Part shown: in pieces, positions 1 through 28,000 of the stretch
Layout of the letters: each line of letters starts with the position of its first letter
How positions within the stretch are numbered: position 1 is the stretch's first letter
Assembly: GCA_016789655.1 (NCBI GenBank)
Contig: JAEUQV010000100.1
Coordinates: 1-32,154 of the forward strand
Direction: 5' to 3'
DNA: 32,154 nt
From: Candidatus Saccharimonadota bacterium
Lineage (GTDB): Bacteria; Patescibacteriota; Saccharimonadia; Saccharimonadales; UBA4665
The notes under the pieces: model-generated
What the model was told of the DNA's origin: nothing
The model's input: only the letters and a program-made list of their open reading frames with translations
Databases searched by the model: none
Position numbers and translations under genes: made by a program

Positions 1-873
1 CCTGCAGCAAATCCTGTCATTCAGTCCTTCACGGCTAACCCATCATCACTCACCGCAGGTGGCACGACAACTTTGTCTTGGTCTGCCGAAAACGTACAGC
101 AAGGTAGCTGTGTCATTTCCCCTTCTTCGTTGAATAGTGCAGGCCCTGTGGGTGAATGGAAGACACCGAGCCTATCGAGTTCGATGACGTACACCTTAGG
201 CTGTGTCAATAGCGATAACGTCCTGGTAACGAAATCGGTTAGTGTCGTGGTCAATGCAGCTCCTGCGCCGGCACCAGTAGCAGTCACTCCGCCTAGCCAG
301 AGTGTGGCTAGAGCTAACCAAGCTGCTAACCTCACGGCAAGTGATGGTGGACGTGTCGCAAATGCTCCAGTAAATGCAGAAGTTTCTGGCAATGCTGTGC
401 TTGAGCCAACAAACATTACAGATACCGAGAAAGAGAATTTCATTGTTAAGGTTGAATACTATGATGGTGATACGTTGCTACAGACTGACGACACCCCTCC
501 ATTCGTCTTAGACACTACAAAGCTTAAGGATGGAAGCTATACGATAAGTGAGCGCACCTATTTTGATGACGGTAGCGAAAGCGAAATTACCCGAACAATA
601 GAAGTTGAAAATGTTAGCCAAAAGACGGCAACAGATGGGAATGGTGGTAGTTCTGCACTTTGGCTGCTTTTGCCACTCGTCGTACTTGGCTTAGGTGTTG
701 CAGCGTTCTTCATAATTCGATCTAGGGCTAATGGCAGCAGTGACGAGATGTATGTACAGCCAGTTACCTATTCTCCGCCAGACTATTCATCTGGCACTCC
801 AGACTGGCAGCGTGGAATCGCACCGCCATCAACTGGGGACGTCATTAACCCCACAGAGAAAAGAGATGCATAA
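1..873 (+). CDS. Ig-like surface protein with C-terminal membrane anchor (5' partial)
   Basis: The frame is open from base 1, so the N-terminus lies outside the window and 290 residues are visible. The first ~85 residues form an Ig-like module of the type SFTANPSSLTAGGTTTLSWS, with two cysteines spaced as for a disulfide. A Pro/Ala-rich linker follows, then a second Ig-like beta domain (VEYYDGDTLLQTDDTPPF to TRTIEVEN). A hydrophobic span at about residues 219-239 (ALWLLLPLVVLGLGVAAFFI) ends in RSR, and a ~50-residue Tyr/Pro-rich tail would be cytoplasmic. This layout fits a type I surface protein held by its C-terminal helix. Ligand and role are unknown. The gene ends 28 bp before the next + gene, a surface glycosidase, so the two may be co-transcribed. 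Confidence 0.75.
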   Translation, partial: PAANPVIQSFTANPSSLTAGGTTTLSWSAENVQQGSCVISPSSLNSAGPVGEWKTPSLSSSMTYTLGCVNSDNVLVTKSVSVVVNAAPAPAPVAVTPPSQSVARANQAANLTASDGGRVANAPVNAEVSGNAVLEPTNITDTEKENFIVKVEYYDGDTLLQTDDTPPFVLDTTKLKDGSYTISERTYFDDGSESEITRTIEVENVSQKTATDGNGGSSALWLLLPLVVLGLGVAAFFIIRSRANGSSDEMYVQPVTYSPPDYSSGTPDWQRGIAPPSTGDVINPTEKRDA

Positions 874-901
874 AGCAGGGCCCACACTTATAGTGCGCTT
901 T

Positions 902-2416
902 ATGAATAGTGAACGGCACAAAAAAATGTCTAATTTCTTCCGAAAAAACGCTAAGCCAGCACTGATCATACTCTCGTTTGCTTTCATAGCAACTGTAGCG
1001 CTAATCTATGCTCAGGCAAAAGATGGCGATGTGGTTTTAGAGGCTGAAGTGGCTACTACAACCGGCAATGCGCTTAAGGTCGATGACCCTAATGCATCGG
1101 GTAGTAAATCGATACGTTTTAAGGTACAAGGTAGCGGTGGCGGTTCGGGTTCGTACGTCTGGCCGCTTAAAATAAGTAGTAATAACCGCTACTTGGTAGA
1201 CCAAAACGGCAGGCCGTTCTTCTACGCTGCGGATACTTCATGGACAATGCTTGGCTATTTGAGCGTAGATGATGCAAAAAAACTTATAGACATTCGCAAA
1301 TCGCAGGGTTTTAGTGCCATACAAACAATCCTGGTGCCATGGGGCGCTGGCCGCAGCAGTAGCGCAAGAGGTGCTGCATTTACAAATAACGACCTGACAA
1401 AGCCAAATGAAGCGTACTTTTCTGCCGTAGACCAGATTATGGACTATGCTGAAACAAAGGGGATGGTTTTGTATATCCCACCGCTTTGGATGGCGAATAA
1501 CGGCGGTTGGGCTTACAGTGAGTATGGAGAGGGCGACCCCACTCCATCACAAGCGGCATTTACTTCGTTTATGACGTGGGTTGGCAACCGCTATAAAAAT
1601 CAGGGAAATATTATCTGGGTTATGGGTGGTGATGATGAGATAGGTACGAGTACGAGTCTTAAGATTGCTGGCGCTAATGCACTTCGCGCAGCTGACCCTA
1701 ATCACCTAATGACATACCACCCGCGCTGGGCAGAGTATGGGCTAAAAGATCAGCCTTGGTTTGACTTCTACGCATTTCAAAAAAATGACATCACGGCACC
1801 GTATCCGTATCAACAAGTTCGTGAGGCATTAGGCATTTCGCCCACTAAGCCTGTCTTGGATGCAGAGCCCCCTTATGAGCCATCGACTGCAATGCAATCG
1901 GGAAATGTCACGACAGCTCTTATGAATAGACGTTTTGGTTGGTGGGCTGCACTTTCTGGAGCGATGGGCGTGGTGTATGGTGGCCCGCAGGGTTCGTGGG
2001 CCGTCGGCTACAAGTCGAGTCCAAACTGGTCATCAGATATTGAGCGTACGCAGGCTAAACATACAGGTAATATTAACAAGATACTCTCACCACTTGGTTG
2101 GCAAAAGCTTTCGCCCGATTGGGACAGTGCGACAGTTATTTCTGGGCGAGGTAGTTATGGCGGCACCGACTACGTTACTGCAGGTCGTGCCGACGATGGA
2201 TCGCTCATTGTTGCCTATGTGCCATCAGCTCGAAGCGTATCGCTAGATATGAGTAAAATGAGTGGCGCGGCTACTGTACAGTGGTTCGATCCAGCTTCAG
2301 GCGAATCTGCTGGTACCTCACAGACAGTAGCCAATAGCGGGTCACAATCATTTGCTACACCAGGCAACAATTCAGAAGGAGACAGTGACTGGGTATTAGT
2401 GGTGCGAAAGAATTAA
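902..2416 (+). CDS. Membrane-anchored GH140/DUF4038-like glycoside hydrolase
   Basis: The 504-aa product has a basic N-terminus, one membrane span (about residues 19-37) and then AKDGDVVLEAE, a carbohydrate-binding-like stretch shared with the next gene. From about residue 92 it matches the apiosidase-like TIM barrel (DUF4038, GH140): YLVDQNGRPFFYAADTSW, then IIWVMGGDDE (242-246) and PVLDAEPPYE (Glu 322). The last two sit where this family keeps its acid/base and nucleophile. The last ~90 residues resemble the beta-sandwich that follows DUF4038 (collagen-bind-2 type). It probably acts outside the cell on plant or microbial glycans; the substrate is not deducible. The start is uncertain: ATGs at 866, 902 and 926 are in frame and none has a good SD. 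926 gives an N-terminus most like the neighbour's, and 902 is chosen provisionally. Confidence 0.8.
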   Translation: MNSERHKKMSNFFRKNAKPALIILSFAFIATVALIYAQAKDGDVVLEAEVATTTGNALKVDDPNASGSKSIRFKVQGSGGGSGSYVWPLKISSNNRYLVDQNGRPFFYAADTSWTMLGYLSVDDAKKLIDIRKSQGFSAIQTILVPWGAGRSSSARGAAFTNNDLTKPNEAYFSAVDQIMDYAETKGMVLYIPPLWMANNGGWAYSEYGEGDPTPSQAAFTSFMTWVGNRYKNQGNIIWVMGGDDEIGTSTSLKIAGANALRAADPNHLMTYHPRWAEYGLKDQPWFDFYAFQKNDITAPYPYQQVREALGISPTKPVLDAEPPYEPSTAMQSGNVTTALMNRRFGWWAALSGAMGVVYGGPQGSWAVGYKSSPNWSSDIERTQAKHTGNINKILSPLGWQKLSPDWDSATVISGRGSYGGTDYVTAGRADDGSLIVAYVPSARSVSLDMSKMSGAATVQWFDPASGESAGTSQTVANSGSQSFATPGNNSEGDSDWVLVVRKN

Positions 2417-2427
2417 TGTCGAGCTAT

Positions 2428-2442
2428 GACCTCTCAGAGGTC
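2428..2442. repeat. Short perfect inverted repeat between the two glycosidase genes
   Basis: GACCTCT and AGAGGTC flank one central C, so RNA could form a 6-bp hairpin with a 3-nt loop just after the GH140-like stop codon. No T-run follows, so it is a poor terminator. A TATAGT box at 2456-2461 lies downstream and could start a separate transcript for the GH26 gene. Both readings are weak. Confidence 0.3.
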
Positions 2443-2504
2443 TAGTGAGTAGGGCTATAGTCTTACTCTTGACATAACAGAAAAGTTAACATGCAGAGCA
2501 GAAG

Positions 2505-3683
2505 ATGAAATTAAGCAAAAACTACAAGAACATTATACGGCAATTTCTTGCTAAAAAATATGCGAAGCCAGTTTTGCTCATAACTGTATTTGCGCTTGTT
2601 TCCACTGCAGCACTCCTAATAACTCAGGCGAAAGACGGAGATGTCTCGCTTGAGGCAGAAACTACTTCAAGAAGTGGCAATGCATCATTCGTAGATGACG
2701 ACAAAGCATCTGGAGGTAAGTCGTTGCATTTTGGTGTAGTAGAAGGGTCGGGGGGTAATAATTCGGCCTACAAACCCCTTTCAAATCCGAACGCCTCCCA
2801 GCAAGCCAAAAACGTTTACAATTTCTTGCAATCCAAAGAAGGTAGCGCCATTCTGGCCGGTCAGCATGAAGCAGATCAATGCACCAAATGTGAAAGTGAC
2901 CGCATGCAGAGCATTACCGGCAAAGCCCCTGCGGTGCACGGTCATGACGTTGCGGGTTATGCTATCGACCCTATAAACGAGGCGATTAATGATTTCAACG
3001 TCCGGCATCAAATCCCTGAGTTCAGCTGGCACGTGAGCGCGCCTGGTACGTCGGAAGATTGGACCAATGTCCAGATAGATGCCAATGTCGCCCGAGCACT
3101 ACAGTCTGGTACGAGCGAGAATACTTCGCTCGTGGCCAAGCTGAACACGATGGCATCACGCCTACAGACTCTAGAAGATGCCAATGTGCCTGTCTTATGG
3201 CGCCCCTGGCATGAAATGAACGGCGGCTGGTTCTGGTGGAGCAAGAGCGGACCAGACACATACAAACAGCTCTGGATATATACTTATAACTACTTTACGA
3301 CTACCAAGGGGCTCAATAACCTTATTTGGGTTTGGTCAGCTGCTGAAAACGAACTTCCAAATGCCGCCTGGTACCCCGGCGATCAATACGTCGATATTAC
3401 AGGTACCGATACCTACACCAGCAATAGCAACATTTCCAACTGGCTCAATAACTATAATCGCCATAAATCCATCGCGCCAACCAAACCGGTCGCCCTTACC
3501 GAGACCGATTACGTCCCCGACCCAGCTCAGCTGCAATCCAGCGGTAATAAGATGCTATGGTTTCTGCCGTGGCACAGTATATACGTAGATCGCAATAGTC
3601 AAAGCACCCTGACCCAGGTCTACAACAGCCCCTATGTTATCACGGCAGATGAGATGCCTGATTTGCGGGGGACTTTCCAATAA
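2505..3683 (+). CDS. Membrane-anchored GH26 endo-mannanase-like glycoside hydrolase
   Basis: The 392-aa product has a basic N-terminus and one membrane span (about 20-41), then AKDGDVSLEAE and a short CBM-like segment, then a GH26 catalytic barrel from about residue 97. GH26 hallmarks are GQHEADQ, VLWRPWHEMNGGWFWW with the predicted acid/base Glu 237, LIWVWSAAENE, and VALTETD with the predicted nucleophile Glu 333. GH26 enzymes mostly cleave beta-1,4-mannans, with some lichenases and xylanases, so mannanase is the best guess. The anchor plus extracellular domain suggests hydrolysis at the cell surface. The N-terminal ~75 residues parallel the upstream GH140-like protein, so the pair shares an export and anchor module. 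The SD is weak (GCAGAAG). The gene is followed by a long non-coding gap, which probably ends this transcription unit. Confidence 0.88.
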   Translation: MKLSKNYKNIIRQFLAKKYAKPVLLITVFALVSTAALLITQAKDGDVSLEAETTSRSGNASFVDDDKASGGKSLHFGVVEGSGGNNSAYKPLSNPNASQQAKNVYNFLQSKEGSAILAGQHEADQCTKCESDRMQSITGKAPAVHGHDVAGYAIDPINEAINDFNVRHQIPEFSWHVSAPGTSEDWTNVQIDANVARALQSGTSENTSLVAKLNTMASRLQTLEDANVPVLWRPWHEMNGGWFWWSKSGPDTYKQLWIYTYNYFTTTKGLNNLIWVWSAAENELPNAAWYPGDQYVDITGTDTYTSNSNISNWLNNYNRHKSIAPTKPVALTETDYVPDPAQLQSSGNKMLWFLPWHSIYVDRNSQSTLTQVYNSPYVITADEMPDLRGTFQ

Positions 3684-4319: not shown

Positions 4320-4399
4320 TTTGAGGGAATAAGGGGGTTGTTTAACTGTGCGCAAGAAGAAGTTAAGAGCGGTGATGTCGTGAGCTGAGTATGTTGAGG

Positions 4400-4405
4400 T
4401 ATACT
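4400..4405 (+). promoter_or_regulatory. -10 box of trmD, leaderless type
   Basis: TATACT ends 6 nt before the ATG at 4412, so transcription would begin at or next to the start codon. No clear -35 is visible 17 bp upstream. Confidence 0.55.
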
Positions 4406-4411
4406 TACCAT

Positions 4412-5077
4412 ATGAGGCTACAAATTATTACACTTTTCCCCGAGATGTTTACGGGGGTACTTGGCACGAGTATGTTGTGGAAGGCGGCCGATAAGGGCAT
4501 AGCCGAGTATGAGTTTATAAATCTGCGCGATTTTGGCTTGGGGCCGCGTAAGCAGGTTGATGACACACCCTATGGCGGGGGAGATGGGATGTTACTGAAG
4601 CCGGAGCCGTTGGTAGCGGCGATAGAGTTCGCAAAGAATAGAGTTATGAGTCAAGAGTCAAGAGTCAAGATTCTGCTGCCGACGCCGCGGGGCAAGCTGT
4701 ATAAGCAGTCCGATGCCAAGCGGCTAGCGGCGGATTGTGACGAGCTTATACTCGTGTGTCCGCGCTACGAAGGCTACGATGAGCGGGTTACCAAATGGGT
4801 AGACGAACAGTTTTGTATGGGAAACTATATACTGACAGGCGGCGAGCTGCCAGCCATGACCATTATAGATAGCGTGGTAAGGTTATTGCCGGGAGTTTTG
4901 GGTGGTGAAACCAGCGCCGATATAGAATCTTTCCAAGACGACGATAAAAGCATAGAGTACCCCCAGTACACCCGCCCCGAAGTGTTTCGCGGCCTAAGTG
5001 TCCCCCCCGTATTACTCAGCGGCAACCACGCCGAAATCGCCACATGGCGGAACCATCAAAATAATAAGGGAGAATAA
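4412..5077 (+). CDS. trmD: tRNA (guanine-37-N1)-methyltransferase
   Basis: TrmD transfers a methyl group from S-adenosylmethionine to G37 next to the anticodon of several tRNAs, which prevents +1 frameshifting. The 221-aa protein shows the SPOUT trefoil-knot motifs LPTPRGKLYKQ, CPRYEGYDERV and GNYILTGGELPAM, then the conserved IDSVVRLLPGVLG. It is near usual length, slightly short at the C-terminus. The ATG at 4412 gives the usual MRLQIITLFPEMF start and follows a -10 box by 6 nt; an in-frame ATG at 4391 lies upstream of that box and is rejected. Odd point: around residues 77-86 the protein carries an insert (RVMSQESRV) encoded by a heptanucleotide repeat (4641-4668). The next gene starts 1 nt after the stop, so the two are co-transcribed. 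Confidence 0.95.
   Translation: MRLQIITLFPEMFTGVLGTSMLWKAADKGIAEYEFINLRDFGLGPRKQVDDTPYGGGDGMLLKPEPLVAAIEFAKNRVMSQESRVKILLPTPRGKLYKQSDAKRLAADCDELILVCPRYEGYDERVTKWVDEQFCMGNYILTGGELPAMTIIDSVVRLLPGVLGGETSADIESFQDDDKSIEYPQYTRPEVFRGLSVPPVLLSGNHAEIATWRNHQNNKGE
4641..4668 (+). repeat. GAGTCAA heptanucleotide repeat inside trmD
   Basis: GAGTTAT is followed by three exact GAGTCAA copies. The total of 28 bases lies in a variable loop of TrmD, where the reading frame is kept. A sister tract lies at 6080-6107. Confidence 0.75.
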
Positions 5078-5674: not shown

Positions 5675-5698
5675 AATAAGTAGAAGGAGGGTATGACT

Positions 5699-6079
5699 AT
5701 GAAGCTATTTCGAATTAAGCCGGTGTATGCGCACTGTGATTTGCCGTGCGGGGTGTATGACCCGGCTCAGGCGCGGATTGAGGCGCTGAGCATAAAGGCC
5801 ATCATGGAAAAATATGATGGGCTCGACGAGCACGGCAAACTGCGGGCGGTTATGATAATTGAACAGCGGGCAGAGCTGGTAAAGCATCATTTGTGGGTGC
5901 TCTGGACAGATTATTTCAAGCCTCCACATCTCGAACAATACCCGGATTTGCACCAAAAGTTTTGGCTTGCCACCAAGCAGGCCGGTGCATGCAAACACCA
6001 TCTCGATACAGCAGAAGCCGACAAGCTGCTGGCGATGATAGACGATATAGCCAAGATTTTCTGGGAGACCAAAAAATAA
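5699..6079 (+). CDS. sodN: Nickel-containing superoxide dismutase
   Basis: NiSOD converts superoxide to hydrogen peroxide and oxygen at a Ni centre held by the mature N-terminus. The protein contains the full Ni-hook HCDLPCGVY, in which His 1, Cys 2 and Cys 6 of the mature chain are the ligands. Cleavage must occur just before that His, removing an 11-residue leader (MKLFRIKPVYA) and leaving 115 residues, close to the 117 of Streptomyces NiSOD. The rest is the expected four-helix-bundle sequence (KAIMEKYDGLDEHGKLRA, HHLWVLWTDYFKP). Two in-frame ATGs exist, 5693 and 5699. The strong SD ends at about 5690, giving 2 or 8 nt spacing, so 5699 is preferred. The gene 12 bp downstream encodes the matching protease. 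Enzymes of this type form hexamers. Confidence 0.94.
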   Translation: MKLFRIKPVYAHCDLPCGVYDPAQARIEALSIKAIMEKYDGLDEHGKLRAVMIIEQRAELVKHHLWVLWTDYFKPPHLEQYPDLHQKFWLATKQAGACKHHLDTAEADKLLAMIDDIAKIFWETKK

Positions 6080-6107
6080 GAGTCAAGAGGTATGAGTCAA
6101 GAGGCAA
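6080..6107 (+). repeat. GAGTCAA-type heptanucleotide repeat across the sodN-sodX junction
   Basis: Four units, GAGTCAA, GAGGTAT, GAGTCAA and GAGGCAA, fill the gap after sodN and the first codons of sodX. The AAGAGG before the ATG at 6092 probably serves as its SD, so the repeat supplies both ribosome site and start codon. Confidence 0.7.
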
Positions 6108-6406
6108 GAAAAAAGCGCCATTATAAAATCATGCTCGTGCGGCGGGTTGTAGGCAGAAGCATGACGCCAATACTCGACCCTGGCCAAGTCGTGGTGGCCA
6201 TACCGTGGCGGCGCTATCAGGCCGAGGATGTGGTGCTGCTTAGCCACCAGGGCAAAGAAAAAATCAAGCGCATCCGCATGATCGATTCCAAAAGCGGCAA
6301 GTACGATGTACGCGGCGATAACCCCTCGCAAAGCACCGATAGCCGCCATTTCGGGCTCATAGAGCACGCCGATATAGTGGGCAAAGTCATTTGGCCCTGG
6401 GTGTAA
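6092..6406 (+). CDS. sodX: Nickel SOD maturation protease (S26-like)
   Basis: The 104-aa protein is a minimal signal-peptidase-fold protease. The serine motif VVGRSMTPILDPGQVVV supplies the predicted nucleophile Ser. KIKRIRMID supplies the Lys general base, and the RGDNPSQSTDSRHFG box is typical of S26/S24 enzymes. It has no membrane span, unlike LepB, which fits the small NiSOD-maturation branch (TIGR02754 type). Its position 12 bp after sodN makes removal of the NiSOD leader the obvious job. The N-terminal residues MSQEARKK are encoded by a heptamer repeat and are probably not functional. Confidence 0.88.
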   Translation: MSQEARKKRHYKIMLVRRVVGRSMTPILDPGQVVVAIPWRRYQAEDVVLLSHQGKEKIKRIRMIDSKSGKYDVRGDNPSQSTDSRHFGLIEHADIVGKVIWPWV

Positions 6407-16774: not shown

Positions 16775-17866
16775 CTAAACCCGATTTGCGATATAGCCTT
16801 TGGCTGCCAGAAGCTCTGCCATCAGCACGGCTCCACCAGCAGCCCCGCGCACGGTGTTGTGAGCTAGCGCCACGAATTGCCACTCGTGGTCATCGATCTG
16901 CCGTAAACGACCCACAGAAATACCCATGCCATTCTCGTAGTCTCGATCGAGGCGAGTTTGTGGTCGATTGTCCTCTTCAAAATATTGGATGAGCTGTTTG
17001 GGGGCGGAGGGCAGGTTGAGCCCGGCTAGGGGGTTTTGGAAATCGTTGACGGCTGACACAATCGCATCTTTGGTCGGCGCTTCGGCGAATTGCACCCACA
17101 CCGAGGCCATATGCCCATCAGTGACGGGCACCCGTATGCAGGTAGCATGGATGACCGGCGTCATGGCTAGGCCTATACCATTTTTGTCTAACTTGCCCCA
17201 AATCTTCATGGGTTCACGCTCGGATTTTTCCTCTTCGCCGCCTATGTACGGGATGACATTATCGACCATTTCGGGCCAGGTTTCGAAGGTTTTACCGGCA
17301 CCGGAAATGGCTTGCAGGCTGGTGACGCTTACATCGTGCGGCTTGAACGCTCGTAGAGCAGTCAAAACCGAAACGTACGACTGAATAGAACAGTTGGGCT
17401 TGACGGCTATTAGCCCGGTGCTCCAGCCGCGATTTTTGCGCTGCACGTCGATGAGCGCGGCGTGCTCGGGGTTGACCTCGGGCATAATCATGGGCACGTC
17501 TTCGGTCCAGCGATGGGCCGAGTTGTTCGATATCACGGCCACCCCAGCGGCAGCGTAGGCTTCCTCTATACGGCGGATATCAGCTTTATCCATGTCAAGC
17601 GCACAAAACACCACATCGACAGCCGCGGCAATGCTTGCAAGGTCATCTTCGACGGAAAGTACCGTAAGCTCTGCAATATCTTCCGGTATAGCTGTCTGCA
17701 TAGCCCACCGGTCTGCCACTGCGGTGCGGTACGATTTGCCGGCTGAACGCGGTGAAGCGGCCAGAGTGGTGACCTGGAACCAAGGGTGAGCATCGAGTAA
17801 GCTTATAAAACGCTGGCCAACCATACCAGTTGCGCCCAGCACGGCTGTCTTATAGGTCTGCGTCAT
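16775..17866 (-). CDS. asd: Aspartate-semialdehyde dehydrogenase (archaeal/fungal type)
   Basis: Asd reduces aspartyl phosphate to aspartate semialdehyde with NADPH, the second step toward Lys, Thr and Met. The 363-aa protein has the nucleotide loop VLGATGMVGQRF (9-20), catalytic Cys 159 in KPNCSIQSYV, the catalytic His 252 in RVPVTDGH, and HNTVRGAAGGAVLMAELL near the end. The NCSI motif and the length match the archaeal/fungal branch rather than the E. coli type (GNCTVS). The ATG overlaps the hom stop (ATGA, 4 bp), with AAGGAG about 10 nt upstream. Confidence 0.95.
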   Translation of the reverse strand: MTQTYKTAVLGATGMVGQRFISLLDAHPWFQVTTLAASPRSAGKSYRTAVADRWAMQTAIPEDIAELTVLSVEDDLASIAAAVDVVFCALDMDKADIRRIEEAYAAAGVAVISNNSAHRWTEDVPMIMPEVNPEHAALIDVQRKNRGWSTGLIAVKPNCSIQSYVSVLTALRAFKPHDVSVTSLQAISGAGKTFETWPEMVDNVIPYIGGEEEKSEREPMKIWGKLDKNGIGLAMTPVIHATCIRVPVTDGHMASVWVQFAEAPTKDAIVSAVNDFQNPLAGLNLPSAPKQLIQYFEEDNRPQTRLDRDYENGMGISVGRLRQIDDHEWQFVALAHNTVRGAAGGAVLMAELLAAKGYIANRV

Positions 17867-18897
17867 AGGGCATGTTCTCCTTTTAACACCAGCTCGGCTG
17901 CCAGACAGTCGGCAAATACGCCTGCCGCGGTTACCGGTACGCCTGCGCCGGGGCCTTTTACGATAAGCGGGTTATCTAGGTACCGCTTGGTTTTGATGAC
18001 AATGATATTGTCAGGACCATGCAACCCACCGATGTCAGATGTAGCTGGAACTGCCATAAGCCTTACGCTGTGCTCAGTTGGGCTCACGGTGGCGACGTAG
18101 CGAAGAACATTACCAGCCTGTTTAGCATCGGTCGCTTTTTGGGCATACTCGGAATCGAGCGTGGAAACTTGCTTTATGAAGTCTTCGGGCGCAAGATCGG
18201 CAAGGGCATCGCTGTATAACTTCTCGACTGCGACATCATTGATTTCGAGCTTTTTACCCAGTACACGAGATAAAATAAGCACTTTACGGGCTACATCCAT
18301 ACCTGAAAGATCATCGCGCGGATCTGGTTCTGTGAAGCCAAGTGCTTTCGCTTGGGTAACTGCGGCTGAAAAACTAGTGCCGGTTTCGAGCTCTGAAAAA
18401 ATATAACCAAGCGTCCCGCTAAAACAACCCTGGATTTCGACGATTTCGTCGCCGGTTGCCAGTAGTGATTTAAGTGTAGAAATGACCGGTAACCCAGCCC
18501 CAACACTAGTTTCGTAAAATAGCCGGTTGCCACCAAGAGCATGTAGCTCGTCCCAGTCGGCTTGCGAGCCAGTAAGGGGTTTTTTGTTTGACATGGTGAC
18601 AGCTCCGCCACGTTGTAGCGCAGCCTTCATGACGGGCAAAGTAAGATTGATCGCAGTCGTATCTACAAGGATAAATGGATCCGTCATTTGATCTACGCAG
18701 TCGAGAGCTGCTACAGCCTTGTCGGCATTTTCGGGAAAGGCATGAAGTTGACTGCTAGTAAGGCCATCGGCCGCGAATAAACCACCTGCAACGTCGAATA
18801 AGCCATGATATACCAGGTCTGACCCATAGGTTGTTACTTGTTCTAAAAGTTCACGGCCGACATTTCCAATGCCAATATGGAGCACAGCAGTTTTCAT
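17863..18897 (-). CDS. hom: Homoserine dehydrogenase (no regulatory ACT domain)
   Basis: Hom reduces aspartate semialdehyde to homoserine. The 344-aa protein has a Rossmann loop HIGIGNVGREL, MSNKKPLTG (Lys near 105) and the family signature GFTEPDPRDDLSGMDVARK, ending in catalytic Lys 205. The C-terminus stops after the catalytic fold (KGPGAGVPVTAAGVFADCLAAELV). It thus lacks the ACT domain through which many bacterial enzymes are inhibited by threonine, as in the yeast and ThrA-domain forms. The ATG overlaps the lysC stop by 4 bp, with AAAGGGATC as SD. Confidence 0.94.
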   Translation of the reverse strand: MKTAVLHIGIGNVGRELLEQVTTYGSDLVYHGLFDVAGGLFAADGLTSSQLHAFPENADKAVAALDCVDQMTDPFILVDTTAINLTLPVMKAALQRGGAVTMSNKKPLTGSQADWDELHALGGNRLFYETSVGAGLPVISTLKSLLATGDEIVEIQGCFSGTLGYIFSELETGTSFSAAVTQAKALGFTEPDPRDDLSGMDVARKVLILSRVLGKKLEINDVAVEKLYSDALADLAPEDFIKQVSTLDSEYAQKATDAKQAGNVLRYVATVSPTEHSVRLMAVPATSDIGGLHGPDNIIVIKTKRYLDNPLIVKGPGAGVPVTAAGVFADCLAAELVLKGEHAL

Positions 18898-20315
18898 GCT
18901 TTGGGATCCCTTTCTAACTTAAACGCATCGTGGATATGCCGTACGGCTGCGGGAACGTCCGTCTCGTCTATGACGAGGGAAATATTGCGTTCCGAAGAGC
19001 CCTGGGCAATCGCTACGATATTAATATTTGACTCGCCTAAACTACTGAGTGTCTTACCGGCTACGCCCGGGTGCCCATGCATACCTTCGCCAACCACAGC
19101 GATGATTGCTAAATTTTCTCGGAGCTTGACCATCTCGATACTGTGACGCGAGAGGTCACGACGGAATTCCTCATGGAGTGCATCGGTAGCGTGTTTGCCG
19201 TCAGCGCGCTTCACCACCAGGGATATGTTGTATTGCGAAGAAGCCTGAGAAATAAACAGTACACTTACTTTAGCCACAGCCAATGCCCCAAATACTCTTG
19301 CAGCGAACCCTGGCACACCGGTCATGCCCTTACCCTGTACGGTTATAAGCGAGAGCTGCTTCATGCTGGTGATGGCTTTGACTTCATGTGAATCTGGTGT
19401 TGCGAGCTCAGTGATGTGGGTGCCGACCGCTTGCGGCTCGAGAGTATTCTTGATAACTATAGGGGTTTGCTTCAGGGCAGCTGGCAGCATAGTGAAAGGA
19501 TGCAATACTTTGGCGCCAAAATACGACAACTCAGCAGCTTCATCGTATGAAAGATGATCGATGGTGCGTGCTTTGGGAATGATACGTGGGTCAGCAGTCA
19601 TCACCCCAGTCACGTCCGTCCAGATCCAGACTTCGTGTGCATCGAGACAGTAGCCGAGTATGGTGGCAGAATAGTCCGATCCGCCTCGACCTAGTGTAGT
19701 GACGATGCCTTTGGTGGTTGCACCCATAAAGCCGGTTACCACAGGCGTCACCAATTCAGCCAAGAGCGGACTGAGCGTGCGCTTGGTTTTTTTGGCCGAA
19801 GCTTTTAAGTCAGGTTGAGTGTCGCCAAACTTATCGTCGGTTACTATGCAGCGGTTGGCAGTGACCGGTTCAGCCGCCACGCCATGCTGTACCAGCGATG
19901 CCGCTACAAGTTGTACGCTTAATCTTTCCCCGAATGAGGTTATAAGGTCGCGGGCGCGTGGGGTGAGTTCGCGTAACATATACACACCCTCTAGCCAGCC
20001 GCTGAGTTCGTCGAGGTCTTTCGTTACGTTGGCGCGCAAGCTAGTAGCTGTATCGGCGTCGAGTTTAAGGGATTCAATTGCAGCTATGTGTTTGTGACGA
20101 ATTGTATCTACGATATCGCGAAATGATTTTTGGGCACGTTGCTCGGCGTGCTCAGCCGCTTGTACGAGCAAATCTGTAACGCCGCTCATAGCCGAAACTA
20201 CAACGACGACTTGGTATGTTTTTGAAGCATCTCGTACGATAGTCGCGACATCTCTTATGCGCTCTGCGCTACCAACTGAAGTCCCGCCAAATTTCATTAC
20301 TACCACTTTTTTCAT
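18894..20315 (-). CDS. lysC: Aspartate kinase with two C-terminal ACT domains
   Basis: LysC phosphorylates aspartate, the committed step of the aspartate family. The 473-aa protein opens with MKKVVVMKFGGTSVGSAER, the amino-acid-kinase phosphate loop. It continues with the Asp-binding RELTPRARDLITSFGERLS and LGRGGSDYSATI, and ends with tandem ACT domains (FISQASSQYNISLVV, IAQGSSERNISLVID) that usually bind Lys or Thr for feedback. It is of normal length. The ATG at 20315 is chosen because a TTGGCT-17 bp-TACACT promoter ends 6 nt before it; a start at 20333 would lie in the promoter. It is first in a run lysC-hom-asd-riboflavin kinase with 4-bp overlaps or 1-nt gaps. Confidence 0.95.
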   Translation of the reverse strand: MKKVVVMKFGGTSVGSAERIRDVATIVRDASKTYQVVVVVSAMSGVTDLLVQAAEHAEQRAQKSFRDIVDTIRHKHIAAIESLKLDADTATSLRANVTKDLDELSGWLEGVYMLRELTPRARDLITSFGERLSVQLVAASLVQHGVAAEPVTANRCIVTDDKFGDTQPDLKASAKKTKRTLSPLLAELVTPVVTGFMGATTKGIVTTLGRGGSDYSATILGYCLDAHEVWIWTDVTGVMTADPRIIPKARTIDHLSYDEAAELSYFGAKVLHPFTMLPAALKQTPIVIKNTLEPQAVGTHITELATPDSHEVKAITSMKQLSLITVQGKGMTGVPGFAARVFGALAVAKVSVLFISQASSQYNISLVVKRADGKHATDALHEEFRRDLSRHSIEMVKLRENLAIIAVVGEGMHGHPGVAGKTLSSLGESNINIVAIAQGSSERNISLVIDETDVPAAVRHIHDAFKLERDPKA

Positions 20316-20321
20316 GGTTAA

Positions 20322-20350
20322 AGTGTAGCGCACGTCGATGTGCGAGCCAA
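20322..20350 (-). promoter_or_regulatory. Promoter of the lysC operon, leaderless type
   Basis: On the minus strand, TTGGCT (20345-20350), a 17-bp spacer and TACACT (20322-20327) end 6 nt before the lysC ATG. There is no room for a lysine riboswitch or T-box leader, so control by such a leader is excluded if this promoter is the one used. Confidence 0.65.
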
Positions 20351-22060: not shown

Positions 22061-25000
22061 GTGATTACTGCTGTACTCGGTACTTCAATAGAAACCGGCG
22101 AATTAACCGATGGCGCTGTGACGACTTCCAAACTAGCTGACGGTTCAGTTACAGCGGCAAAGATTGTCGATGGTGATGTAGTGACTGCAAAGCTTGGTGA
22201 CGGCAGTGTTACTACCGTAAAAATCGTCGATAGCGCGATTACGTTCGCCAAGATTCAAGACCTTGCTGCCAATAGTTTATTAGGTAATCCTAACGGCAGT
22301 GCGGCGGCTGGTACCAATATTGGGATCGGAAGCGGGTTAGGATTCAGCGCAGGTGATCTATATAACTCCGGACTCTTAACACTGAGTGTCAATGGACCGC
22401 TGCAAACTACAGGCGGTCAGTCACCAACACTCTCTATCGCGCAAGCAAACGGTACAACCGATGGCTACTTGAGTGCTGCAGACTTTGCCACGTTCAATGC
22501 CAAGCAAGCAGCACTGACCCTAGGTAATCTTAGTAGTAGCACCTCGGGTATAACTGTGACTGGCGGTACGGGTGCGGTCGTAGGCGGCGGCGTCTCCATA
22601 ACAATCGCCACTGCATCTGGCGCCCAAAACGGCCTCTTAAGCTCTATAGATTGGACGACATTCAGCGCCAAAGAAAATGCATTGACGTTTAGCGGGAATG
22701 GCTTGCTTGTCCGAAGTGGAGACGCGGTATCTGTGGCAACCTGTACCGCTAATCAGGTTCTGAAGTGGAATGGTAGCGCTTGGGCTTGTGCTGTAGATGT
22801 CGATACCAATACCACGTACAGCGCGGGTATCGGTTTAAATCTCGTTGGAACAACTTTAAGCAATAGTGGTGTTTTGAATATTGACGTCGATGGCCCCTTA
22901 GGCAATACTGGCGGCCAAAACCCGGTTCTTTCTATACAGCAATCGGATGGCATTCATGATGGCTACCTGAGCGCCGCCGACTTTGCGGCGTTTAGTGCCA
23001 AACAAGCCGCACTGCCGACCGGTGGTAGTACTAACCAGTACCTCCGCGGTGACCTCACTCTGGGCACACTCGATACCGATGCCGTCGCCGAAGCTGGCAA
23101 CCTATACTACACCGACGTACGTGCCGATGCGCGCATTACCCTACAAAAAGGCGTTGCCAATGGTTTGGCTACGCTCGATGGAAGCGGCAAGATCGTATCG
23201 TCGCAACTCCCAGCTATAGCGGTAACTAACACGTACGTCGTCGGCAGCGAAGCAGCCATGCTCTCACTTGGTGCCAACAAGGGCGATGTGGCCGTACGCA
23301 CCGATGAAAACAAGAGCTATATAGCAGTCGATGTCCCAACTGATCAGGTAGCTAACTGGCAAGAACTCCTGACTCCTGGCTCACCCGTACAATCAGTCAA
23401 CGGTCAAACTGGTACCGTAACACTTACTTCGTCAAACCTGGCAGAGGGCGTCAATTTGTACTACACCGATGCGCGTGCCCGCAGTGCCCTTGGCGTAAGT
23501 GGCCCGCTCAGCTACAACCCAACAACAGGGGTGTTTGGGATAGGCCTAGCCAGCGGCAGTGCCAGCGGCTACCTGAGCAGCGGAGACTGGAATACGTTTA
23601 ATAGCAAACAATCCGCGTTACCAGCGGGCACTTCTAGCCAGTACTTACGCGGCGACCAAACACTTGGGACACTCGATACTTCAGCCGTGGCTGAAAACGG
23701 CAATCTGTACTACACGCAAGGCAGGTTCGATAGTGCACTTGCCGCCAAGACGACAGATATTCTTATAGAGGGCTTAACGAATAAATATTTTACCGATGGC
23801 CGCGCTGATGCCCGGATCACCCTACAAAAGGGTGCGGTCAATGGCCTCGCTACCCTCGATGGCAGTGGAAAGGTACCGACTTCACAGCTTCCAGCCATGG
23901 TCATGAATAGCACCTATGTGGTGGCTGATCAAGCCTGCATGTTGGCACTTAGTGCCGTCAAGGGTGATGTAGCAGTCCGCACCGACACCAGTGAAAGCTT
24001 CATACTTTCTGCCACGCCTGCTAGCACGCTGGGCAACTGGCAAAAGCTGCTTACGCCAACTGCACCTGTACTTTCTGTAAATGGTCAAACCGGTGCTGTA
24101 ACCTTGAATACGGGTCAGATCGGTGAGGGTGGTGGTAACTTATACTACACAGACACTCGAGCGAGGGGAGCGTTGAGCGTTTCCGCGCCGCTGACCTATA
24201 ACAGCACGACCGGTGCGCTCGGCCTAACCATGGCCAGTGGCTCGACCAATGGCTACCTGACCTCAGCCGACTGGACGACCTTCAACGGCAAGCAGGCTGT
24301 CTTAAGTGCAGGCACGGGTATAACTATTGCTAGCAACACTGTCAGTCTGACTAACCAAGGCCTCACTTTCGCCTTGGGTACGTCTGGAACAGATGTGAAT
24401 TTCAGCTCGACCACCGTTAACCTGGGTGGCACAACGACCCTGAATATTCCGAATGCGAGCGCAACTGCACGCGGCCTTGTCACTGCCGGTGCCCAGACCA
24501 TCGCGGGGGATAAAACCTTCTCTGGCTCGGTAGCCGTAGCAAAGGGCAGTGACTATAGCACGGTCGGCACAAGCAACGATGCCAACCTCGGCAGCGGCTC
24601 GCTCATCCGCCTCACTGGCGCAAGCGCACAAACACTTACCGGTATAGCTGGCGGCACCGACGGCCGATTGCTAACCATCATTAATGCGGGTGTATACACC
24701 GCTACTCTATCAAATGACGCCTCCGGCTCCACGGCTGCGAACAGGATCAAAACTGGCACGGGCACCGATCTTTCATTGGCTGCCGATGCATCGCTCAGTC
24801 TTGTCTATGACTCTGGAGCTTCTCGTTGGCGCGTCGTTGGTGGCACCGGCAGCGGTGGTAGCTACACTAGCACCGACATTTCCAATAAAGCGACCGGTGG
24901 AAGCTTGGGCTCTGCGAGCAGTACTGTCGACACGTACTCTAACTTCAATGTCAATCAGACGACAGCTGGGCAAACTTTGAGCATCCCGAACCCCACTAGT

Positions 25001-28000
25001 GTAACTACGACTAAAGGTAAAATTATTACTATTAGCAACATTGGTACGGCAAACTTTACGCTAGGTGGCGTGACAGTTATTGCCGGCGGGGCTGCGAATA
25101 GCTTTGTTTGGGATGGTGATAGTTGGAATGCGGTAAACGCAGCAAGCAATGTCGCTGCCAGCTATTTGAATGCGACATTATCAGCAAATCAAACGACCAA
25201 TATAAGCACAGGTGACCACATTAAGTTTAATAGTGTTGGTGCGTCTACTAGCGATGACATCTCGCTTGACTTGACTTCGGGCTATACAAACACTGCCAAT
25301 ACAGCATCGCTTGGGCGCTTCAGCCTCAAGGCTGGTAAAACATACCGCCTGACTGCGAACCTTAGCGGTATCTCCGGACCTGCGGCAGTTGATTTTGATT
25401 GGACATGGCGCGATGCAAATACGGGGACCAACATCGGTAACTATGTGTATGGAGACTCAGTCTCACATACTCAAAACGAGATTGGTGGCAGCACTGCTGA
25501 AGCCGTGTACACACCAGCCTCAGACACAAGAGTAGAGATCTACATTAGTACCAACACAAATGCTACGACTGTTTTTGCGGCAAATTCTTCTGCAACCATT
25601 CAGGTGATTGGCGGCAATACACCTATTAATCTTGTCAACGGCGTCAGTAGGCGAGTCGGAGAAATGGTCTACGCAGAAAGCGGCAGAACTGTAGGCACCG
25701 GATATTTAGCCGTAAGCCCCGGGACAATCACGAATGGAGCGATAACGTATCCCGCCTGGGCGGCTAAGCACCCAGAGTTCGTGAGTGGTAACAACATTGT
25801 CTTCCCCGCTGATGTAGCTGGCATGTTCCTTCGTAACACAGGTGGTAATGCAGCAGCTATCGGTACTTTCCAGGCCGATGCAACCGCAGTCAATGGCTTA
25901 GGCGGCACCACGTCCGTAAACGGCGCTCATTCCCATACTGTATATGGCTACACTAATAAGGACGACATGAACTTTACCGGGAACGGCGGTAGAATGCAGG
26001 GTTCTGATGCGACAACCCCTTACGACCAGTCGACGTCAGCCGACGGCAATCACTCGCATTCGCTTAATATCACCTCTAGCGACGTCGAAACCCGCCCCGA
26101 CAACCGTGCCTACCAGCTCTATACACTCGTAGACACCTATACTGACGTAGCAGCCATAGGTAGCATTTCTATGAGTGCTATTTCGGCAGCAGTTTCTAGC
26201 AGTGCGCTCGACAATAGCAGTTACACCCAGACCTGGAACTGGACTACCCTAACAAATGGTTCTGGCCTTGTTAGTAATGCGAATGCACTGACGTCTGGCG
26301 TATTACACCAGCTCGCTACGAGCTCGACGGCGTTTACAGGTTCGCTTTTGAATCTGATTAGCGCAGGAAATAGCGCGAGCGTAACCGGTTCACTGGCTAA
26401 GCTTGACATCGTGGGTGGAACATCGGCCGCTAAAGGCTTGACTATCAACAATGCCGGTACGGGTGACAGCCTGCAGGTCAACGCTACCGGAAGTGGCCTT
26501 GCCGCTAACTTCGGTGGCGCCATTGCTACCAAAGCGGGTACTACCTACACCACGCCAGGCTCGGCTAACGACGTGGCGTTTGGTAACGCGTCATTCATAC
26601 GGCTCGATACCTCCGGCGCAGCCCAGACTATCACAGGAATTGCAGGCGGGGCAGACGGTAAGCACCTCACGCTTTCGAACGCCGATGCATCTCTGGCGGT
26701 CACCCTAAGCAATCAAAGTACCGGCTCCGCAGTAGCAAACCGCATCATCACAGGTACTGGTTCAGATGTGAGTATTGCTGCCGGAGCATCAATAGAACTG
26801 ATCTATGATGCGACCGACACTCGCTGGCGCGTAGTAGGTGGCACCGGTGGTGGTGGAAATACGACCCTGCAGACGATATCTAGCAACAGTTCGGTCAGCA
26901 ACTGGAATTACTCGGTGAAAGGCGATGCCAGCAGCACGGCGGTGACAGTTACATTGCCAACAGCAGCAGGAAACAGCGGTAAACTCATAGAAGTAACTCG
27001 AGTAGATAGCTCTACCAACTCTCTCTGTGTCAAAGCTTTTGGTAGTGAAACGCTCAATAGTTCAACAAATACAGTCTGCCTTTACAACCAGTATGATTCC
27101 ATCGTCGTACGCTCAGATGGGACGAATGTGATCATGGTGGCAGACAATCGGAGTAGTGCGGGCGCTCCAAGTGAATATGGCGAAGCTACAGATACTTCAT
27201 TTCGAAGTACTAGTAGCACCTCATTCGTAGATGCGACAGGCTTGAGCGTCACACTGCCAAGCGCTGGTACCTATGAAATTCTGTACCACATCGATCAAAA
27301 CGCTCCTGACCCAGGGGAAGGCATAGAGTTTGTCGTAACCGACGCGAGCAACAATCAGGTAGCCGGCAGTCTCTCACGTGTAGAGATGAGTGGATCAGGT
27401 GCGTATGCTCAGCAAGACGCCAACCAGATTGTGCGGGTGACAGTCACCTCAGCTACGACATACAAATTGCGCTGGCGTTCAGCTACAGGCGCGCAAGTTG
27501 ATTACAACTGGGGTGCTGAAGGTGGAGTATCTAAGATTACTTACAAGAAAATAAGCTCACCTAGTATGGTCACTAGCACCGTCGACTATGTTCGTGCAAC
27601 ACAGGCAACCAACCAGAACCCCGCAGTTGGAAGTGCGATTGACTATACGGCCAACATCCAAGGAAACATTGCACATGTTGGGTCCGGAAGGTATCGCCTA
27701 GTAGCAGGCAAGACATACAAGCTAAGCGCAGCATGGGCACCACCAAATAATGGCGGAGCCAATGCAGACTACCAATGGTATAACGTAACAGCCGGAGCAT
27801 ATATAGGTACCGAAGGTTCGGGTGGTGATCCAGCAGGTGCAGAATATCTGCACGGATTGGCTACGGCAATCATTACGCCTACAGCAGATACAGATGTTGA
27901 GGTTCGCTATACCTTTGACAATGCAGGTACTTCTGGCTTTGCCAAAAACTGGATGGAAATAACACAAATTGGGACTACCGGTACCACCATGGGAACTATT

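Follow-up and report, generated by a model that had tools for sequence, protein, structure and literature searches.

The DNA analyzed here, hereafter the window, is a stretch of 32,154 nucleotides, contig C95 of a MAG assigned to Candidatus Saccharimonadota (1,349,103 bases in 118 contigs, 93.35% complete). It carries the full saccharimonadial set of trmD, a KPVYA-type leader, sodN, and sodX, all in one direction. The features of the locus are as follows:

4391..5077, + strand: trmD, the usual upstream neighbor of sodN whichever of the two enzyme types a saccharimonadial locus carries
5686..5690, + strand: ribosome-binding-like GGAGG, 8 bases before the ATG at 5699 (read from the sequence)
5699..5731, + strand: leader MKLFRIKPVYA, 11 codons, of the saccharibacterial KPVYA type (sequence and leader comparison)
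5732..6079, + strand: coding part of the mature nickel superoxide dismutase (NiSOD) including the stop, actinobacterial-type (clade A), with the hook HCDLPCGVY (profile scores, solved-chain alignment, and trees)
6092..6406, + strand: sodX-like soluble S26 protease of patescibacterial lineage (profiles, tree, and motifs)

As an open reading frame, sodN spans 5699–6079 on the + strand and encodes a product of 126 amino acids. The protein scores 155.9 bits against TIGR02753 (sodN, cut-off 90) and 154.6 against PF09055 (cut-off 25), exceeding both thresholds, and is the single PF09055 match in its genome by profile search. Residues 12–126 align to solved NiSOD chains, best to 1t6i_A (E 3.3e-40); these chains (1t6i, 1t6q, and 1q0d) we take to be actinobacterial NiSOD of the Streptomyces type. 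The HC...C nickel hook stands at the mature N-terminus, reading HCDLPCGVY from 5732, and the identical nine letters occur in 131 of 184 loci. Hooks with Pro5 replaced (HCDLMCG, HCDLACG, and HCDLFCG) were seen in L021, L169, L178, L179, L158, L011, and L180, and some Actinobacteria have HCDLMCG and HCDLYCG. Owing to the GGAGG at 5686–5690, the ATG at 5699, 8 bases 3' of it and opening a leader of 11 residues, is preferred to the alternative in-frame ATG at 5693, which follows the GGAGG by only 2 bases and would give a leader of 13 residues.

The protease frame begins 12 bases past the sodN stop and contains a further in-frame ATG at 6131. A direct repeat, GAGTCAAGAGG, occurs twice (6080–6090 and 6094–6104) and covers both the sodN–sodX gap and the first sodX start, so the true start may be 6131. 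The product exceeds the Pfam cut-offs of Peptidase_S26 (PF10502; 37.0, cut-off 22.9) and Peptidase_S24 (28.6, cut-off 23.3). It scores 52.3 against the NiSOD-protease profile TIGR02754, below the NCBIfam cut-off of 63.25, and is therefore named only SodX-like, of the S26 family. Numbered from 6092, it has the serine motif GRSMTP (Ser 23) and the lysine motif IKRI (Lys 59), and no membrane helix is evident, the top 19-residue Kyte-Doolittle mean being 1.08. In the phylum sample, which includes the window, sodN is adjoined by an S26-like frame at 29 of 30 NiSOD loci, and the remaining one, L030, stops at a contig edge; with 29 of 30 loci sharing it, the adjacency is not a matter of chance. The sodX-like frames of L009 and L019 extend into long C-terminal parts, that of L019 looking membrane-spanning by eye. 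The frame, hook, and neighbor are thus as the original prediction described them, namely a complete HCDLPCGVY hook, an 11-residue leader, and a soluble S26 protease 12 bp downstream, and their setting is indeed a reduced patescibacterial genome (a 1.35-Mb MAG).

In NiSOD, removal of the leader exposes His1 and allows nickel to be bound by the N-terminal hook. The locus would accordingly make a NiSOD precursor, the neighboring S26 protease would cut the leader after Ala11 and free His1 of HCDLPCGVY, and the freed N-terminal hook would then bind Ni. The search for other SODs proposed with the prediction detected no match to Fe/Mn SOD (PF02777) or CuZn SOD (PF00080) in the window's genome. The exposure to oxygen that had been proposed fits the presence of COX1. 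As to the suggested nickel uptake, of the two nickel carrier families searched, neither NicO (PF03824) nor CbiM (PF01891) was matched in this 93% complete MAG, and two CorA were found.

Elsewhere in the window, GH26 and Apiosidase-like glycoside hydrolases (Pfam) lie at 731–3683, in what is a reduced genome. One run on the - strand at 16775–20333 comprises an aspartokinase-type kinase, homoserine dehydrogenase, and semialdehyde dehydrogenase; these are genes for making amino acids, present in a lineage presumed to be host-dependent. An open frame of 2607 amino acids occupies 22061–29884, and its first 1033 residues match no Pfam family above cut-off.

PF09055 was matched in 30 of the 379 genomes sampled from the phylum, in 82 of the 392 sampled from the class, and in 76 of 246 genomes of Actinobacteria, sampled as the phylum to which a Planotetraspora genome belongs. 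The first two samples overlap and both include the window's genome; 81 of the class matches are over cut-off and are counted below, the weak match of G411 being left out. NiSOD has been published for Saccharibacteria before: it was reported in the rhizosphere saccharibacterium T. rhizospherense (PMC6031116), and nickel SOD is among the families enriched in sludge Saccharimonadia (PMC10031880). Carriage by phage was rejected, viral contigs and phage records holding no relative, as was carriage by plasmid, the plasmid collection giving two records, one of which is an 11.85-Mb Nonomuraea replicon listed as a plasmid.

The counts of enzyme type, leader, and trmD refer to 247 of 271 loci. L185–L196 and eight duplicates recognized by their titles were omitted, as were four rows from unplaced MAGs: L037, L039, L099, and L033, which is the closest relative (88%). 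The 143 actinobacterial loci among them, made up of a best-hit set of 67, an even sample of 75, and L031, are not fully independent. The IQ-TREE SodN and SodX trees contain 91 of the 271 loci after identity thinning; left out were L182, L184, L020, and L164 for their long branches, the incomplete loci L030 and L183, rows in which sodX or its serine motif could not be read (e.g., L039, L067, L199, and L175), and L185–L196. L067 and L199 have identical protease frames. Both alignments are short (127 columns for SodN and 95 for SodX), and the groups were named after a first tree.

The mature SodN of the 81 saccharimonadial loci falls into two types, type A in 63, including the window, and type B in 18. 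In FastTree, clade A (support 99) unites all 143 Actinobacteria with the 63 type-A Saccharimonadia and one Levyibacteriota row, while 18 Saccharimonadia, 21 other Patescibacteria, and Novosphingobium lie outside; the same split is recovered by IQ-TREE with 100/99 on a branch of 0.93 (91 rows). The mature SodN of the window hence lies in the actinobacterial clade, and no second NiSOD type was found in the Actinobacteria examined (0/143 outside clade A). Among the best 80 matches listed for a window-centered profile against a collection of 84,980 species genomes, a list that holds the nearest kin only, 67 are Actinomycetota, eight are titled Saccharibacteria or Patescibacteria, one is Levyibacteriota, and four are unplaced MAGs. 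The window SodN is 64–76% identical to these 67 Actinomycetota over the best segment, and 69.5% to Nonomuraea in the plasmid collection, compared with 41–45% to three type-B SodN from its own order and 34–43% to 11 other Patescibacteria. AU tests rejected the Saccharimonadia as a single SodN clade (p-AU 0.040) and all Patescibacteria as a single SodN clade (p-AU 0.027), but not one type-A clade (p-AU 0.268); these are modest p-values. Type A also occurs in f9, f10, and f173, beyond the window's order. In IQ-TREE, the type-A rows L021, L169, L178, L180, L011, and L158 stand among Actinobacteria, away from the window's group; in FastTree, only L011, L158, L169, and L179 do. The SodN trees rooted on Novosphingobium place the Actinobacteria inside a saccharimonadial grade, but the root is weak, since the joining branch is very long and the outgroups are few.

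The protease tree groups the same loci in another way. On one side of a branch with 99/99 support, apart from the Actinobacteria, stand 62 SodX rows, namely 28 of type A, the window, 11 of type B, 19 other Patescibacteria, the Levyibacteriota row, and two unplaced MAGs. Within this patescibacterial side, types A and B are intermixed in a group of 33 rows (98/85), and proteases from the window's order pair across types, L169 (A) joining its congener L157 (B) (96/78) and L021 (A) joining L176 (B) (100/93). A SodX clade of type-A Saccharimonadia plus Actinobacteria was rejected by the AU test (p 0.007), and the window SodX falls outside the actinobacterial portion of the SodX tree.

The order of the genes, the leader, and the locus side with the protease. 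In 79 of 81 Saccharimonadia (62/63 of type A and 17/18 of type B), sodX follows sodN in the same direction, the two exceptions being L183, which stops at a contig edge, and L152, which has no sodX match within 1,564 bases. The same order is found in 20 of 21 other Patescibacteria (L030 reaching a contig edge) and in Novosphingobium. In Actinobacteria, unlike in the window, sodX is divergent in 136 of 143 loci (64/67, 71/75, and 1/1 in the three sets); the remaining seven include five without a sodX match and two with sodX upstream on the same strand. Leaders ending in KPVYA are present in 40/63 type-A and 10/18 type-B loci, but in none of the 143 Actinobacteria or the 21 other Patescibacteria, and an aromatic residue at leader position -2 occurs in 57/63, 12/18, 3/143, and 18/21 of these groups, respectively. 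Within the flank covered, mostly ~1–1.5 kb and ~4 kb for most named loci, trmD lies upstream on the same strand as sodN in 56/63 type-A and 14/18 type-B loci and in no Actinobacteria (0/143) or other Patescibacteria (0/21); two of the eleven saccharimonadial misses had less than 170 bases of upstream sequence. The window leader DNA (33 bases) has on average 16.8 matches to type B, 15.3 to other Patescibacteria, and 10.5 to 75 Actinobacteria, whereas the first 90 mature bases have 45.6, 46.8, and 57.9, respectively. The likeness switches at the leader/mature junction.

The neighborhood of trmD also accommodates other SODs. Across the 392 class genomes, Fe/Mn-SOD (PF02777) was found in 134 and NiSOD in 81, the two together in none (27.7 expected), a contrast whose hypergeometric value is descriptive only, as related genomes are not independent. 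The window's family of 58 genomes includes 41 with Ni, 14 with Fe/Mn, and three with neither. Among 16 Fe/Mn-SOD loci examined (of the 134), some covered over less than 3 kb on a side, trmD was within ~3.3 kb in seven (L282, L283, L286, L288, L291, L293, and L295), on the opposite strand in four, and Fe/Mn-SOD lies downstream of trmD on the same strand in three families. This flank of trmD could be a slot for SOD genes in general.

The proposed exchange is seen most clearly in one pair of genomes. G406 (type A) and G702 (type B) belong to the same genus, g344, and have different enzyme types in one slot. Their six upstream genes are collinear, with proteins 63–84% identical (TrmD 84%), against 41% for SodN, 65% for SodX, and 62% for the next gene. 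The 33 leader bases of G406 have 22–28 matches to five type-B leaders of its family, where two type-B leader pairs have 25 and 26 matches among themselves, versus a mean of 8.9 and a maximum of 14 to 75 actinobacterial leaders. In a TrmD tree built from 57 of the 70 trmD-bearing saccharimonadial loci, G406 and G702 are nearest neighbors, and the A/B label requires four changes, only one of which is forced by starred branches. G710, another type-A genome of g344's family, shows the same pattern as G406. No remnant of a type-B sodN was detected in the six type-A sodN–sodX gaps longer than 75 bases (best E 0.028). A comparable mismatch occurs in Levyibacteriota, where L074 combines a type-A SodN, whose place inside clade A is not settled by IQ-TREE, with a SodX that branches among Patescibacteria other than Saccharimonadia (98/83), whose leader style it also shares. 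Contamination is conceivable for this single MAG contig, yet the SodN/SodX mismatch sits inside one gene pair.

Judged from sequence comparison, the window locus is probably a natural chimera, in which the leader, the protease, and the trmD-side slot are native to Saccharimonadia and a clade-A mature enzyme replaced another mature NiSOD in place. The sequences themselves show the incongruent trees, the shared leader, the shared locus, and the non-actinobacterial gene order. The mature coding part would have been exchanged in the slot, with a boundary near the leader/mature junction, while the leader, protease, and locus were kept. Recombination is the presumed process, and the leader and protease were presumably retained because the two must match. 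Actinobacteria appear to be the donors on the simplest reading, because the Actinobacteria examined are without a second NiSOD type while the Saccharimonadia have two, and because Actinobacteria are the hosts of the cultured Saccharibacteria (PMC6031116, PMC8406219); the outgroup-rooted trees do not support this direction. Some observations stand against the chimera. The window leader DNA is almost as near to other Patescibacteria (15.3/33) as to type B (16.8/33), no remnant of a type-B gene was detected between sodN and sodX, the protease is under the TIGR02754 cut-off, and some of the resemblance between leaders may be convergent, as an adaptation to the protease.

Among the alternatives, the one that survives best is that type A is ancestral in Saccharimonadia through an old transfer at the stem of the class, type B having been swapped in later from other Patescibacteria. 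The occurrence of type A in f9, f10, and f173 outside the window's order and the non-rejection of a single type-A SodN clade (p-AU 0.268) favor it, but six type-A rows stand among Actinobacteria in IQ-TREE and four in FastTree. It would still need an in-place exchange of the mature part, which makes it a variant of the chimera, and we regard it as possible though unlikely. A transfer in reverse, by which Actinobacteria obtained the mature NiSOD from Saccharimonadia and it spread beside an unrelated divergent sodX, would agree with the outgroup-rooted SodN trees that put Actinobacteria among Saccharimonadia. However, the outgroup branch is 0.93 long, which weakens the root, the Actinobacteria examined show no second type that would mark a native enzyme since replaced (0/143 outside clade A), and the other Patescibacteria have the leader style, SodX, and gene order of Saccharimonadia but not the enzyme; this direction seems improbable.

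Transfer of the whole sodN–sodX pair from an actinobacterial host, which the original prediction had favored in proposing that the pair was gained as a unit, is highly improbable. Outside Patescibacteria the mature SodN is indeed nearest to Actinobacteria (67 of the best 80 listed; Nonomuraea 69.5%), so the proposed actinobacterial tie holds for the mature enzyme, but the protease is patescibacterial (99/99; AU p 0.007), and the gene order, leader, and trmD locus are native. An actinobacterial origin of the leader or protease is rejected on the SodX tree, the AU test, and the leader and locus comparison. Deep vertical inheritance within Patescibacteria, named with the prediction as the pattern that would speak against it, was found for the leader, protease, and locus and not for the mature enzyme. 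An ordinary vertical NiSOD with unequal rates, its actinobacterial likeness being convergence, would suit the vertical leader, SodX, and locus but is hardly credible with SodN 64–76% identical to Actinomycetota (best 80 listed) and 41–45% to three type-B sequences from the same order as the window.

If the chimera is accepted, the leader and its cognate protease might form a fixed patescibacterial maturation chassis, in which mature metalloenzymes have been swapped repeatedly, several times from actinobacterial hosts (in the window's lineage, family f7, and the Levyibacteriota MAG), with the crossover at the cleavage point; this extension is offered tentatively and may well prove too broad. 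A long-diverged exchange of part of a gene within an operon would escape scans. The locus would represent a natural experiment on metalloenzyme maturation, suggesting that what must match is the leader with the protease and not the leader with the enzyme.

The two published accounts of NiSOD in Saccharibacteria (PMC6031116, PMC10031880) share the presence of the enzyme with our findings, and the passages considered here take up neither its origin nor its leader or protease. NiSOD transfers among phyla have been described in PMC8346466, the main text of which does not mention Patescibacteria or CPR. Within the partial coverage of our literature search, no description of a native leader and protease combined with an actinobacterial-type mature NiSOD was found. 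Compared with actinobacterial NiSOD (PF09055/TIGR02753), the window is alike in the mature chain, the hook HCDLPCGVY, and the YDPAQARIEA motif, but differs in the leader, in the co-directional downstream sodX, and in a SodX of patescibacterial lineage. Other patescibacterial and type-B NiSODs, in contrast, have hooks such as HCD.PCGIYETD and HCD[IV]PCGIYDP and a mature enzyme of another clade than the window's, while they resemble the window in the mostly aromatic residue at leader position -2, the co-directional sodX, and the protease lineage, and the type-B saccharimonadial NiSODs share the trmD locus as well.
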